Part shown: piece by piece, positions 7,667-12,654 of the stretch | How the letters are laid out: every line of letters starts with the position of its first letter | Numbering within the stretch: the stretch's first letter is position 1 | From: a virus | Strand: one strand, 5' to 3' | Length of the DNA stretch: 20,657 bases | Virus record (IMG/VR): IMGVR_UViG_3300013104_000084 | Coordinates: 1 to 20,657 of that record | Notes under the pieces: model-generated | The model's database searches: none | Seen by the model: the letters and a program-made list of their open reading frames with translations, nothing else | What the model was told of the DNA's origin: nothing | Made by a program: the position numbers and the translations under genes

Positions 7667-9337
7667 CTACCTAACTCGCTCCGGCATGTATTGTTTCGGC
7701 TCCGGCTCGGCGCCGGCAGCCAAGGCGTCCATCCTAGCTTCCCAGGACAGGATCGCCGCGACGATGGCGTCGAACTTCCGCTTCTGCTCGATCTTCGCCA
7801 GTCGGAACTTGGGCTGGTTGTCCTCGTCGACACCGCGGTCCATCCGCTTGCCCGCGTTGCCTGCGTGACGAACGAAGTCCGGGTCGCCGTCGAATGCCAT
7901 GTCCCCGTTCTCTACCGCGATCTGGTAGTTCTTGATCGCGTAGTACATCTGGTTCAGGTTCTTTGTCCAGAACTCGACGACCTGATCGGGGTACAGTCCG
8001 CCGAGTTTACCGATCAACTCCATCCAGTGCGGAGGGTCGGCGTACAGACGCCAGACCTCGAACCGCTTGAAGGCATCGGTGAACGTGTCCATAACCTCCT
8101 GCTCCGGTACGCGCCAGTCCAGCGGTCTCCCGTCCTCGTCATTGCCGAGGTCGGCCGGACGCTCCCAGAGGCCGAGGATGTTCTGGACGCCGGTCCTGAT
8201 GTCAGTGGCGACGATCGCCGTCGAGTCGTCGCGCACGGCGCCGTCGAACCCGAGCGTGATGAACGCGCCGTCAGGAATCTTCAGCGACGGGTCACCGAGC
8301 GCCGCGAACTGGTCGCGGTCGAACGCCTGCGCGTCGGTCTGCGTCCAGCGGTTGGCCCACACTCGCTCGAGGTACTGCTTGTCCGCGCCTTCGCGATCCC
8401 ACATCTCCGCGATGCCGATGATCTGCTTCGATCCCCACGACAGGACTCCGGGGCCGGTCGCCTCGCGGATCGCCTTGATCCGGTTCTCCATCGTGTCGAA
8501 CTTGGCGCCGTCGTTGGCCTGCCGGTGCATGAAGAAGAAGCCCTTCGAGGACTTGCGTCCCTCCCAGTTCTCCATGCCCTCGCGGTACTCGTCCTCCGCG
8601 TAGGAGTCCTGACCGGGCTCGCCGGCGGTCGTCGTCGAGAACTGCCAGGGATCTTCGAGAGGTCGCTTCGGCAGGTTGTTGAGCATCGTCTCGATCGCGG
8701 CCTTGTGGTTCGGCAGGTGCAGACGGTGAGTCTCGTCGAGAGCCTGCATCGTCGTACGCGCGCCGTCGAGTGCGCCGGGGGTACCCGCCAGGGGTACCGC
8801 CTTGCCGTCGGGCCGACCGGCCGAGTTCAGCCGGACGATCTCCTTGTCGGTGATCTTGAACAGGTGCGAGTCGTCGCACGTCTCCAGGATCGACTGGAGC
8901 GCGCCGTAGCCGAGCTCGGAGACCTGGTCCTTGGTGTACGCGAGCATCGGCACGTACGGGTTGGTGACCGGCCGACCGGACTTCATCCCGCCGAGCAGGG
9001 TCGCGTCGTACCCGGCGAACCGTACTGGGGCCTCCGGATGGATCTCCGCGGCGACAACCCACGCCAGCAACTCGGTCTTGGCCGAGCCCTTTCGCACGGA
9101 CATCGCGACACGCTGGAACCGGCGCCGACCGCTGCGGTCCTCGCCGTACTCTGTGTGCCCTCGCGGGAAGTGCTCGTACGCGTACCAGAGGATCTCCTTC
9201 TGGTCTTCGTCGAGCACGACCGGCATACCCTGCATCGAGCCCGGTCCGTAGACGAAGCGTTCCTCGATGAAGTCGCACACCCAAGGTCCGAGCGTGGGGT
9301 AGTCCACGCCATCCGGCCTTGGCACCAAAATCTTCAA
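7667..9337 (-). CDS. Terminase large subunit, 556 aa
   Basis: DNA-packaging motor and nuclease. The ATPase half shows a Walker A-like loop VRKGSAKTE (residues 81 to 89) and a Walker B-like MQALDET (197 to 203, D201/E202). It also has a coupling-motif-like WQFSTTTAGEPG (231 to 242). The nuclease half has the RNase H-like LGFDGAVRDDSTA (D365), YADPPHW (D434) and a late KFDAIVAAIL (D523), consistent with a three-acid metal centre. The start appears to be TTG at 9337 with AGAAGG eight bases before. No ATG or GTG fits better, and this reading places ILVPRPDG near the N-terminus. No small terminase subunit was recognised in the neighbourhood. An HNH nuclease lies next door, a pairing known to assist packaging in cos phages such as HK97. 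Confidence 0.9.
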   Translation of the reverse strand: MKILVPRPDGVDYPTLGPWVCDFIEERFVYGPGSMQGMPVVLDEDQKEILWYAYEHFPRGHTEYGEDRSGRRRFQRVAMSVRKGSAKTELLAWVVAAEIHPEAPVRFAGYDATLLGGMKSGRPVTNPYVPMLAYTKDQVSELGYGALQSILETCDDSHLFKITDKEIVRLNSAGRPDGKAVPLAGTPGALDGARTTMQALDETHRLHLPNHKAAIETMLNNLPKRPLEDPWQFSTTTAGEPGQDSYAEDEYREGMENWEGRKSSKGFFFMHRQANDGAKFDTMENRIKAIREATGPGVLSWGSKQIIGIAEMWDREGADKQYLERVWANRWTQTDAQAFDRDQFAALGDPSLKIPDGAFITLGFDGAVRDDSTAIVATDIRTGVQNILGLWERPADLGNDEDGRPLDWRVPEQEVMDTFTDAFKRFEVWRLYADPPHWMELIGKLGGLYPDQVVEFWTKNLNQMYYAIKNYQIAVENGDMAFDGDPDFVRHAGNAGKRMDRGVDEDNQPKFRLAKIEQKRKFDAIVAAILSWEARMDALAAGAEPEPKQYMPERVR

Positions 9338-9373: not shown

Positions 9374-9802
9374 TTACTGCTGGTAGAGCCCCATTCGTCG
9401 ACGCTGCCTGTTCCTCTTCGCCTGCGCCGACACGTTCTTCTTGAGTGGCGTCATGCGGATCTTCTCGTGCGCGGTCTTCTCGCGGTGGTGTGGATCGCAC
9501 AGGAGTTGCAGGTTCGACGGCCGGTTGTCCCCGCCGTCGATGATCTCCTTGATGTGATCGACCTCGTGCGCAGGCTCACCGCACAGACGGCAGACGTGGT
9601 AGTCGCGACTGCGGATGTAGTCCTTCTCCGTCTGCGTCAGCGCCGGCACGCGGCGCCGCTTGTCGCCAGCGTCCTCCCACGACTTCCGCCAGTGTTGCTC
9701 ACACCGGAAGTCCTCACCCGAGGGCGAGACCTTCGCGAGGTTTCGACACTTGATCGACTCCCGCTCCGGGTCTCGCCACGAGCACAGCTTCGACGCTCTC
9801 AT
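9374..9802 (-). CDS. HNH endonuclease, 142 aa
   Basis: Predicted metal-dependent endonuclease next to terminase. The C-terminal half carries a complete HNH core: C71-x2-C74, then HEVDHI (H79, H83), N97 in SNLQLLC, and C102-DPHH (H105/H106). The N-terminal 40 residues carry another possible zinc site (C7, C19, C34, H37). The tail is very basic (KRNRQRRRMG). The ATG at 9802 was chosen because it overlaps the preceding gene's TGA by four bases (ATGA), and the longer upstream reading is Arg/Pro-rich and not protein-like. HNH proteins beside terminase are common in cos phages and can stimulate cutting at the packaging site. Whether this one does so is inference. Confidence 0.85.
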   Translation of the reverse strand: MRASKLCSWRDPERESIKCRNLAKVSPSGEDFRCEQHWRKSWEDAGDKRRRVPALTQTEKDYIRSRDYHVCRLCGEPAHEVDHIKEIIDGGDNRPSNLQLLCDPHHREKTAHEKIRMTPLKKNVSAQAKRNRQRRRMGLYQQ

Positions 9803-9963
9803 TCTCGACCGTCCAGGGCGTGATGAACGTGCATGAACTTGCCGGGAATGATCTCCTCGACCGTGGGTCCGCAGACGCAAAGGTCTCGGGGGTGGTCGAT
9901 AAGATCTCCGATCGGACTGCAGATCACGTCGTAGTCCTCCTGCTCCTCCACCAGCCAACTCAT
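9799..9963 (-). CDS. Small acidic CxC protein, 54 aa
   Basis: Short acidic protein starting MSWLVEEQEDYDVICSPIGD. The centre has LCVCGP (C46-like pair) and the end FMHVHHALDGRE. The H...CxCGP...H(H/N)..DGRE arrangement is one I recognise from many small actinophage proteins of unknown function. C15 with the CxC pair and the HVHH cluster could bind zinc. The ATG at 9963 has AGGAG eight bases before it. It overlaps the 22-aa microprotein's stop (ATGA) and the HNH start (ATGA), forming a tightly coupled run. Confidence 0.75.
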   Translation of the reverse strand: MSWLVEEQEDYDVICSPIGDLIDHPRDLCVCGPTVEEIIPGKFMHVHHALDGRE

Positions 9964-10028
9964 TTCTTGTGCTCCTGGCATCCGCACCAATGGTGCCTGC
10001 AATCCCAGACGCACTTGCAGCCGGTCAC
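9960..10028 (-). CDS. 22-aa Cys/His-rich microprotein
   Basis: A tiny reading frame from GTG at 10028 to TGA at 9960. It encodes 22 residues, of which five are Cys (4, 6, 10, 15, 17) and three are His (12, 13, 20), with a pair of Trp (8, 14). The layout is CxC-x3-C-x-HH-x-CxC-x2-H. The start overlaps the previous gene's stop by four bases (GTGA) and the stop overlaps the next gene's start by four bases (ATGA). A GAAGGG ribosome binding site lies before it. The frame also contains the AGGAG used by the next gene. Overlaps of the same kind join other real genes here, which supports translation. Function unknown; a metal-binding knuckle is likely if made. Confidence 0.55.
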   Translation of the reverse strand: MTGCKCVWDCRHHWCGCQEHKK

Positions 10029-10192
10029 TTGGGGTAGCCCTTCGCCGTCCGCTTCCGCTTCTTGCCGCGGCGATCCAACTTCTTCTTGAGCAGCCGAGCT
10101 GCGGCGTTCTTGGGGACGAAACCGTGGCCCCACTTCGCGCCGTTCTTGGCCTTACCCTTCTTCCGCGTGTTGAGTCTGCCTCGCTTCGCCAT
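10025..10192 (-). CDS. Very basic small protein, 55 aa
   Basis: Starts at ATG 10192 with AGGAG five bases before. The protein begins MAKRGRLNTRKKGKAKNG and is about 40 per cent Lys plus Arg, with a GHGFVPKNAAARLLKKK segment in the middle and RRGKKRKRT near the end. It has no acidic patch and only one Asp. It looks like a nucleic-acid-binding peptide, perhaps helping packaging given its place between appendage genes and HNH/terminase. Small Lys/Arg-rich proteins at this place are seen in other actinophages, but I cannot name a family. It is coupled to the next gene by a GTGA overlap. Confidence 0.75.
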   Translation of the reverse strand: MAKRGRLNTRKKGKAKNGAKWGHGFVPKNAAARLLKKKLDRRGKKRKRTAKGYPK

Positions 10193-10207: not shown

Positions 10208-11098
10208 TTAGTAGATGTGTAGCCTAGTTTGGCCCGTCCCGGTCCCAGGGAGAACCCTGGTCTGAATTGTCGAGTTGGAAGCCGTTTTCATGAACTCCAG
10301 CGTGATGATGTCTCCAACCTTGATGTCCTTCACTCCCACCACGGTGCTAATGACCGCTGTGGTGTTGGTTCCCAGGTTGCCGGTCAACTCGAGAGTGGTC
10401 CCGTTTACCGCGACCCTGACTGCTCGGTTGACTCCGAACCCGGTATTCTGAGTTGTCGCGGTAGCCGCGATGACGACCGAGTCTCGCGCTTGGGTCGCTC
10501 TGATTCCATACCCGTCGCTGGTAGCGACGAACCCAGAGTCAGCGGGCATCGCCCAGTCTCCAGAAACCTTCTCCCAGACGTTCAGTGACGCGGATGCGAC
10601 TGCCGAGCCACCCTTGAAGCCTTCTCCTCGGAACTCGACCGCTCGAAGGAAGGTGCTCGGACCACCCTTGAACAGGCACCCGCTTGGGAGAGTTGTTCTG
10701 ATCTGGGTCTGGACCGTCACTCCCTCGAGTTCGACGGGAAGCGGTATCGGGGTGATCTCGACAATCGGTTTTTCGTTTGGGTCAACGCCTGAGTAGACCT
10801 TCTTCTCGCCCTTGATGAGGTCCCCTACCCCTGCGGCAACGAGATCCATGTAGACATCGAACGCAATCGGAGACGTGATCCTCGCGACGGTCGTCTGGCC
10901 GACCAGGAAGGTCTTTCCCGTCGGCTTCCGCAAGACCATTCCGTTGGAAGCCACCGTCAGACCTGAAGTCTTGGTAGCGACCTCCTCCTTCCAGCCTGCG
11001 AGCGGAACTCGGGACGTGGCCGCCGTCGACTGATCGCCTACCTTCTCGATTCCGTACCTCAACTCCTTGACGCGCTGCATAGCGCGGACGAAGATCAC
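10208..11098 (-). CDS. Putative virion appendage protein, beta-rich, 296 aa
   Basis: Unrecognised protein directly after the collagen-like fibre gene. The GTG at 11098 overlaps the fibre stop by four bases (GTGA) with GCAAGG upstream; the longer upstream reading is only a shadow of the fibre gene. After a short helical start (RAMQRVKELRYGIEKVG) almost all of the chain alternates Thr/Val/Gly-rich strands. It includes the segments TLPSGCLFKGGPSTFLRAVEF, GSAVASASLNVWEKVSGDW and VAVNGTTLELTGNLGTN. The last of these looks like an Ig- or jelly-roll-type fold. Coupled translation with the fibre suggests a partner in the same surface appendage. No catalytic motif was seen. Confidence 0.6.
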   Translation of the reverse strand: MIFVRAMQRVKELRYGIEKVGDQSTAATSRVPLAGWKEEVATKTSGLTVASNGMVLRKPTGKTFLVGQTTVARITSPIAFDVYMDLVAAGVGDLIKGEKKVYSGVDPNEKPIVEITPIPLPVELEGVTVQTQIRTTLPSGCLFKGGPSTFLRAVEFRGEGFKGGSAVASASLNVWEKVSGDWAMPADSGFVATSDGYGIRATQARDSVVIAATATTQNTGFGVNRAVRVAVNGTTLELTGNLGTNTTAVISTVVGVKDIKVGDIITLEFMKTASNSTIQTRVLPGTGTGQTRLHIY

Positions 11099-12654
11099 GA
11101 CCCGAGCCTTGCTCGAATGGCGAAGCCGAAGCCCTTGCCGACTGTGCCCGAGCCGGTCGAGACGATGCTCGGCATCAGCACGCTGCCAGCAAGAATGCGA
11201 CGAGTCGACTCGGGGCCGGTCGGGGTCGCGGTGCGATCGGTCCACGAACTCGGAAGCGTGTTCTGCTTCGCGGCCGGGACGGTCTTCGAGTAGATCCCGC
11301 CGCTGAGATCGGCGCCGTTGACCAGCAGGTTGCAGACGGTTTCCCCGCCGCCGTCGGCGGTGTAGAAGAGGTACGTCACCGAGTCGATGAAGATGGTGTC
11401 TGGGATTGGAACCCCCATCGGAACCTGGGTCAGGCCGGCCTCTCGGGTCGTGTCTTCGAGGACGGTCATCGCCACCACCGGGTAGGGGTTGACGTTCTCG
11501 GCCTTCGACGCCGCGCCGATCGCATCTCGCGCGGAGCTGGCCGTGCCGCCAGCGCCGACGAACGCGGGCTTGTTTCCGATGTTGTCCCAGGTTCCGACCG
11601 GGCCGGTCTGCCCTTGGATTCCCTGCTCGCCCTGGTCACCCTTGGGGCCTTGGATGCCCTGGTCACCCTTGAGCCCTTGGACACCCTGGATTCCCTGGTC
11701 ACCCTTCGGACCGACCTCTCCGACGTCACCCTTCGCGCCGGTATCGCCCTTGTCGCCTTTGGCGCCATTGGTTCCGGCCGTGCCGGTGTCACCCTTCGGG
11801 CCCTGGATTCCCTGGATACCCTGAATGCCCTGGATACCCTGGTCGCCACGGTCGCCTTTGTCGCCCTTCTCTCCCTGGGCTCCGGTGATCGGGATGCCAG
11901 TTCCTTCGGGCTGCCAGGCTCCGCCGGTCCAGAAGTAGATCATCCGATCCTCGAAGACGACGCCGGAGAATCCCTCCTGGCCGGGGAGTGCCGCCAACTC
12001 TGCGTACGTCGCTACCTGGTACTCCAGTTGTAGCCCGTCGCCTCGCTGACCTTGCTCACCCTGGATACCCTGGTCACCCTTCGGACCCTGGATGCCCTGC
12101 TCGCCCTGGAGTCCCCGCGGGCCGGTGTCACCCTTGGAGCCGACATCGCCCTTGAGACCCTGTTGTCCCTGCGATCCGGTATCGCCCTTGTCGCCTTTGG
12201 CGCCTTGCAGTCCAGGCAACCCCTGGTCACCCTTAGGCCCGATGTCCCCGCGATCGCCCTTGTCGCCTTTGAGTCCGGTATCTCCCCGGTCACCCTTCTC
12301 GCCCTGATCACCCTTGATCGTCGTGCCGGAGCCCTTCGGCTGCCACGCGCTACCGACGAAGGTGTACATCTTCCCGTCTTCTCGGACCAGGTAGACGTCG
12401 CCATCCTTGGCGGTCGGCGCCGTGGGTAGTTGCTCCCAAGTGTCGATGATGCCGGTCAGCTTCAGTTGACCGGACGTGACGACGATGCCGGTGTACTTGA
12501 GGTCGTTGTACCGCGAGTTGCCGTTGCCGATCTTCAGCCCGCCTGTGTCCGACTCGTACAGCGGTTCGCCGTCGCCAAGGACCGGATTCTGCTGCTCAGC
12601 CTCGTAGGCGAGCATCCGCTTGATCCGCGTCTGCATAGCGTAAAAATCGGCCAC
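11095..12654 (-). CDS. Collagen-like fibre protein with two collagen blocks, 519 aa
   Basis: Surface fibre. Residues 1 to 56 resemble the N-terminal domain of phage tropism determinants and tail fibres (NPVLGDGEPLYESDTGGLKIG, then SRYNDLKY). There follows a module with GDVYLVREDGKMYTFVGSAWQPKGSG and a first Gly-X-Y block (about 115 to 207). A second, related module (MIYFWTGGAWQPEGTG) precedes a second Gly-X-Y block (258 to 351). The C-terminal domain (352 to 519) begins TWDNIGNKP and is probably the trimeric tip. The collagen blocks are rich in GDQG, GDKGD and GIQG triplets. The ATG at 12654 follows AGAGGA with an ACAACTGAATA element just upstream. It could be a head or tail fibre. Confidence 0.85.
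   Translation of the reverse strand: MADFYAMQTRIKRMLAYEAEQQNPVLGDGEPLYESDTGGLKIGNGNSRYNDLKYTGIVVTSGQLKLTGIIDTWEQLPTAPTAKDGDVYLVREDGKMYTFVGSAWQPKGSGTTIKGDQGEKGDRGDTGLKGDKGDRGDIGPKGDQGLPGLQGAKGDKGDTGSQGQQGLKGDVGSKGDTGPRGLQGEQGIQGPKGDQGIQGEQGQRGDGLQLEYQVATYAELAALPGQEGFSGVVFEDRMIYFWTGGAWQPEGTGIPITGAQGEKGDKGDRGDQGIQGIQGIQGIQGPKGDTGTAGTNGAKGDKGDTGAKGDVGEVGPKGDQGIQGVQGLKGDQGIQGPKGDQGEQGIQGQTGPVGTWDNIGNKPAFVGAGGTASSARDAIGAASKAENVNPYPVVAMTVLEDTTREAGLTQVPMGVPIPDTIFIDSVTYLFYTADGGGETVCNLLVNGADLSGGIYSKTVPAAKQNTLPSSWTDRTATPTGPESTRRILAGSVLMPSIVSTGSGTVGKGFGFAIRARLGS
11602..12312 (-). repeat. Collagen Gly-X-Y coding repeats, two blocks
   Basis: Two stretches of in-frame Gly-X-Y triplets inside the fibre gene, at 12034 to 12312 and 11602 to 11883, separated by a non-collagen module of about 50 residues. 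At DNA level they are made of near-identical 9- to 18-base units. In the transcript around 11810 to 11840 four GIQ triplets follow one another almost without change, a place prone to slippage or recombination. Confidence 0.8.

Follow-up and report, generated by a model that had tools for sequence, protein, structure and literature searches.

A 22-codon Cys/His-rich open reading frame in a mosaic insert of a Rhodococcus-type phage and its possible role as a coupled lead-in to the next gene

Small open reading frames (ORFs) that are joined to the next gene by an RTGA overlap of stop and start codons are found in mycobacteria. They deliver ribosomes to the following gene and do not need a particular peptide sequence (PMC4633059). 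Another example of coupling is f1 VII-IX, a -4 overlap with a hairpin upstream; translation of an upstream gene can open a hairpin that masks an SD (PMC12548453). Some short ORFs of mycobacteria that are coupled to downstream genes are rich in Cys and act as Cys-responsive attenuators, as far as this is described in the accounts of Canestrari 2020 given by PMC9094748 and PMC9031893. Cys-responsive attenuation by Cys-rich ORFs is also proposed in PMC4633059.

A frame of this general kind is found in the window, the whole stretch of DNA that was analysed, which is a virus record of 20,657 bases. The frame (micro-ORF; Table 1) falls within the RTGA-coupled small ORFs when these are defined by fewer than 50 codons and a stop overlapping the next start by RTGA. 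It resembles the ORFs described in PMC4633059 in that it is tiny, has the RTGA overlap, carries the next SD in its own codons and belongs to an actinobacterial host type. While those ORFs are mostly the first in leaderless transcripts of host genomes, the micro-ORF lies inside a run of phage genes and uses an inherited SD and GTG.

Table 1. Features of the micro-ORF locus, with positions in the window
Feature	Positions	Strand	Evidence
Terminase large subunit (TerL)	7667..9337	-	
HNH endonuclease, PHROG_7785, PF01844; right flank of slot	9374..9802	-	profile E 6e-62
54-aa CxC/HHALDGRE protein, PHROG_2864	9799..9963	-	profile E 5e-8
226-bp insert (micro-ORF and 54-aa gene), absent from ChewyVIII	9802..10027	-	
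Micro-ORF, 22 codons, GTG to TGA, VTGCKCVWDCRHHWCGCQEHKK	9960..10028	-	translation, overlap and composition counts
Predicted mRNA hairpin, 17 bp in four segments, pairs SD of 54-aa gene	9969..10014	-	
AGGAG, SD of 54-aa gene, in QE codons of micro-ORF	9972..9976	-	
55-aa basic protein, PHROG_13218; conserved left flank of slot	10025..10192	-	profile E 3e-33
GAAGGG, SD-like, in the codons for AKGYPK, the conserved end of the basic protein; SD-like site of HNH in ChewyVIII	10038..10043	-	

A sequence-only reading had proposed a 22-residue frame tied to both neighbours by GTGA and ATGA overlaps but had named no strand; this frame is present on the minus strand. From 10028 to 9960 the minus strand translates as VTGCKCVWDCRHHWCGCQEHKK followed by a stop; the plus strand gives no such peptide. 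The composition had also been given correctly in every detail (five Cys, three His and two Trp, with the spacing CxC-x3-C-x-HH-x-C-x-C-x2-H). At the 5' end, the GTG of the micro-ORF and the stop of the 55-aa basic protein overlap in a GTGA; at the 3' end, the TGA of the micro-ORF and the ATG of the 54-aa gene overlap in an ATGA (9963-9960). The stop of the 54-aa gene in turn overlaps the ATG of the HNH gene. GAAGGG (10043-10038) is found 9 nt ahead of the GTG of the micro-ORF, and AGGAG (9976-9972) 8 nt ahead of the ATG of the 54-aa gene. The neighbours, which had been described as a basic peptide, a CxC protein, HNH and terminase, are borne out by PHROG profile matches and by TerL.

The nearest named relative of the window is Rhodococcus phage ChewyVIII (Zierdtviridae), and the window's phage is accordingly Rhodococcus-type. 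TerL of the window and of ChewyVIII are 99.8% identical. Over the 9,801 bases from the HNH gene to the window end the two share 98.9% identity with 0 gaps, and in the stretch that contains the basic gene the identity is 98.4%. Apart from the micro-ORF and the 54-aa gene, the insert listed in Table 1 contains nothing. With slashes marking the junctions, the window reads CCCCAAG/TGACCGG...GTCGAGAA/TGAGAGCG where ChewyVIII reads CCCCAAG/TGAGAGCG; the boundaries are ambiguous by a TGA microhomology of 3 nt. Because the part from the HNH gene to the end is so nearly identical and gapless, the cassette is taken to be recent. The cassette was more probably gained in the lineage of the window than lost from ChewyVIII, since the 54-aa gene is found at this junction in no other relative examined. 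The relatives lack the cassette altogether instead of carrying altered copies of it, and searches for its DNA elsewhere gave only chance-level matches in phages and plasmids. As judged from these comparisons, the micro-ORF is an orphan within a recent mosaic insert, with an unusual peptide composition.

The GTG of the micro-ORF is the annotated start of HNH in ChewyVIII, while in the window HNH starts with ATG. This implies that the GTG and the GAAGGG are older than the place of the micro-ORF there. The cassette, the inherited start and the overlaps are all visible in the alignment. GAAGGG had been cited earlier as a site preceding the micro-ORF; it does lie there, but as support for the peptide it is confounded, both by the AKGYPK codons and by its use for HNH in ChewyVIII. 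Since the start site has been taken over from HNH, the micro-ORF is very probably translated. For the same reason, initiation at its GTG is likely but gives no independent support for the peptide.

Judged from the aligned genomes, Zierdtviridae have repeatedly taken up inserts at the junction between PHROG_13218 and HNH, which acts as a slot. It is empty in ChewyVIII, NC1, SuperSulley, Buggaboo, Emianna and others. MacGully and GuyFagieri have a transmembrane-like ORF of 27 or 36 aa in the slot, GTE8 and others have a PHROG_18398-type protein of about 150 aa, NosilaM has an 89-aa gene, and one further locus (L104) has a gene of about 94 aa. The occupants in NosilaM, in GuyFagieri and MacGully and of the PHROG_18398 type share with the micro-ORF the junction and the short stop/start overlaps on the flanks, but their sequences are unrelated to it and none of them is Cys/His-rich. 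Where Buggaboo reads CCGAAG/TGACCGG, NosilaM reads CCGAAG/TGAGTGAG...GTGGAA/TGACCGG. The geometry of this insert is identical to that in the window: the new gene begins at the old GTG of HNH, and HNH now starts at an ATGA. Exchange at RTGA stop/start junctions is suggested, because two independent inserts have both ends on TGA. By analogy with NosilaM, the micro-ORF may have served as a gene start in the donor before the exchange.

The repeated use of this RTGA junction as a slot, with newcomers inheriting the start of HNH, is a more solid finding than the peptide. Should the micro-ORF be no more than a lead-in, the locus illustrates a way for a tailed phage to insert small genes at one fixed RTGA junction while the following gene keeps a start. 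The new gene begins at the existing start codon, and the gene that used it before is joined on again through ATGA. This pattern is visible at the nucleotide level in two independent cases, the window cassette and NosilaM.

The PHROG_18398-type slot proteins of about 150 aa have a conserved IHESVHLA (HExxH) at eight loci. This suggests a metallopeptidase-like site in proteins whose annotation is merely hypothetical.

The 54-aa protein belongs to PHROG_2864, a widespread family in actinophages; across 29 sequences its P, D, H, CxC and HxxLDGR hardly vary. The 54-aa protein matches the HMM from profile position 1 onward, and therefore the ATG at 9963 is likely to be the true start of the gene. 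Its AlphaFold model (pLDDT 74) has no credible fold match in the PDB. No Cys/His micro-ORF was found just upstream of other PHROG_2864 genes at 32 contig loci and in 7 phage records. Arthrobacter phage Richie (L127 535-1073) shares with the window the arrangement of a PHROG_2864 gene immediately followed by an HNH gene. The HNH gene beside terminase is labelled terminase small subunit in Nocardia phage NC1 (MW452562 23557-23997) and in Gordonia phage GTE8 (KR053201 5991-6422); for both genes, relatives and the profile indicate an HNH endonuclease.

As for the main role of the micro-ORF, there is about an even chance that it is a translated lead-in that couples ribosomes into the 54-aa gene. 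On this reading an accessory cassette of 226 bp, consisting of the micro-ORF and the PHROG_2864 gene, was exchanged recently into the GTGA junction between the basic protein and HNH. The micro-ORF, as the first frame of this cassette, now occupies the start site at which HNH begins in ChewyVIII. Its main effect would then probably be in cis. Ribosomes that start at the inherited GTG would unfold the hairpin in which the AGGAG of the 54-aa gene is held, terminate at the TGA that overlaps the ATG of this gene, and reinitiate; HNH would be reached by a further ATGA coupling. We infer the translation, the coupling and the dispensability of the peptide itself. The sequence-only reading had offered two roles, a mini zinc knuckle and the delivery of ribosomes to the next gene; the latter is better supported, by the inherited start, the overlap and the position of the SD in a predicted hairpin.

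The hairpin is a prediction. The fold of 9966-10017 (52 nt) has -23.3 kcal/mol and a dinucleotide z of -3.6, in the lowest 1.4% of the folded windows, while a 66-nt fold does not stand out (z -0.97, with 14% of windows equally or more stable). In the predicted fold nearly all bases of the CCAGG-GCAC stretch, which contains the SD of the 54-aa gene, are paired. Within AGGAG the second A is bulged, and the other four bases are close to fully paired. Several other SDs in this GC-rich phage are equally paired. When the peptide is re-encoded with random synonymous codons, the RNA folds almost equally well (p 0.32), so that there is no sign of RNA selection beyond the codons. Note that the TGC, CAC, and TGG codons are mutually complementary (GTGC/GCAC, TGG/CCA). 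A Cys/His/Trp-rich peptide and the hairpin therefore come together and are inseparable from one sequence, and either of them may be the cause of the other. In favor of a coupling lead-in we count the comparison with ChewyVIII, the parallel of NosilaM and Buggaboo, the varied or missing occupants of the slot, the paired AGGAG and the precedents in the literature. Counted against it are the unexceptional hairpin in the longer fold, the other paired SDs, the result for synonymous folding and the improbable Cys/His content.

This content is also what a functional metal-binding peptide of 22 aa would explain. In such a peptide the Cys and His would bind zinc or another metal, and the peptide would act alone or with the 54-aa protein or HNH; this is possible but on the whole rather unlikely. 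The composition is rare among open frames. At least five Cys together with at least eight Cys plus His are found in 19 of 396,651 stop-free 22-residue stretches in related DNA, where they fall into a few clusters, and in 0 of 24,298 simulated open frames, giving a chance of about 5e-5 at one frame. With at least five Cys and at least seven Cys plus His, the micro-ORF stands alone among 368 doubly overlapped short ORFs in the window and its relatives. As the micro-ORF was picked post hoc, the effective significance of its composition is weaker than these counts. A peptide with a function would also agree with the micro-ORF taking the gene-start position of the 89-aa gene of NosilaM, and with the tiny transmembrane-like ORFs, overlapped on both sides, that are found in the same slot of two related Rhodococcus phages. 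The third-position GC of 82% matches the genes of the phage. The codon score of +2.1 is reached by 7% of wrong-frame stretches, and 10% of true-frame ones are lower, so the codon evidence for coding is weak.

Against a metal-binding peptide stands the absence of homologues. No relative of the peptide was found by tblastn in 50,697 phage records, no credible match was found in IMG/VR, Pfam, PHROGs, NCBIfam or PDB, and plasmids gave no homologue either. The pattern of the Cys/His skeleton has 28 matches in 2.9 million viral contigs, none judged to be a relative; most of them are frames interrupted by stops, or stretches rich in Cys within unrelated contigs. A Cys/Trp/His pattern has two matches in viral contigs, both with in-frame stops. 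The spacing fits no family found. The classical zinc knuckle (CCHC) has the spacing CX2CX4HX4C. The micro-ORF has a different spacing and no Pfam match. If the peptide is nevertheless functional, it would be a very small phage protein with a metal site, below the usual limits of gene finders.

It is unlikely, though less so than the remaining alternatives, that the micro-ORF is a leftover 5' flank or the tail of a donor gene, carried along with the 54-aa gene and read by default with no role. A random insert is open over 22 codons with a probability of 0.61 (Markov simulation), and the double coupling has p of about 0.20 by chance (0.61 open x 1/3 frame). The window has 26 doubly overlapped ORFs of 12-40 codons on its two strands. 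The double coupling is thus ordinary; the Cys/His content is not. The sequence is an orphan, and a Cys/His stretch of this kind somewhere in the 20-kb window would not be unusual (roughly 0.4 expected in six frames, as estimated from the stretch counts). The chance of this composition at this particular frame, however, is the low value given above, and the RTGA boundaries are clean on both sides of the cassette.

A Cys-responsive leader is quite improbable. Slow decoding of the five Cys codons would alter the exposure of AGGAG and tune the 54-aa gene together with HNH and TerL. These codons do lie in or beside the predicted hairpin that would mask the next SD, and the mycobacterial Cys-rich ORF attenuators are a precedent. 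The micro-ORF is like the polycysteine leaderless ORFs of Canestrari et al. 2020, as far as they are described in the sources above, in being short, Cys-rich and just upstream of a gene set. Unlike them, it has Cys codons that alternate with other residues (contiguous Cys codons mark polycysteine attenuators according to PMC9031893), it is not evidently leaderless, it precedes no genes of cysteine metabolism and it has no conservation or relatives. Leaderless initiation is unlikely, since the micro-ORF overlaps the stop of the upstream gene in a same-strand run of genes, here late genes. Least probable of all is a double function of the Cys/His codons, in which they specify a metal-binding peptide and at the same time build a hairpin that gates the next gene, as a sensor of cysteine, zinc or redox state ahead of the packaging genes.

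Other origins of the frame were considered and rejected. A decayed copy of the HNH N-terminus was suggested by a 12-nt in-frame match (TGCCAGGAGCAC, CQEH) and by a GTGACCGGC start in common with some relatives, but the micro-ORF aligns no better than shuffles at the protein level (p 0.64), and the full DNA alignment reaches only p 0.03. A repeated operator was also rejected, as the GCACCANTGGTGC palindrome is found once in the window and is absent from 8-32 kb of ChewyVIII. No known RNA family was found at the micro-ORF in Rfam.

PHROG_16378 of Arthrobacter phages is, like the micro-ORF, a tiny Cys-rich actinophage protein, but it has 41-44 aa and its own motif, CHECTC..PPCSACENC. The micro-ORF has no match to its profile at E<=1. 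One copy of PHROG_16378 is found about 0.5 kb upstream of a PHROG_2864 gene (L031). In several Arthrobacter phage records, such as KX670787, KX855962, and KX522650 (near 45.5-46.0 kb), this conserved 41-44 aa Cys-rich ORF is matched where no gene is annotated, while it is annotated in relatives. In the window itself, the part divergent from ChewyVIII is 10208-12654, which holds a collagen-like tail protein with Gly-X-Y repeats and the next gene, and is flanked by stretches more than 92% identical to ChewyVIII.
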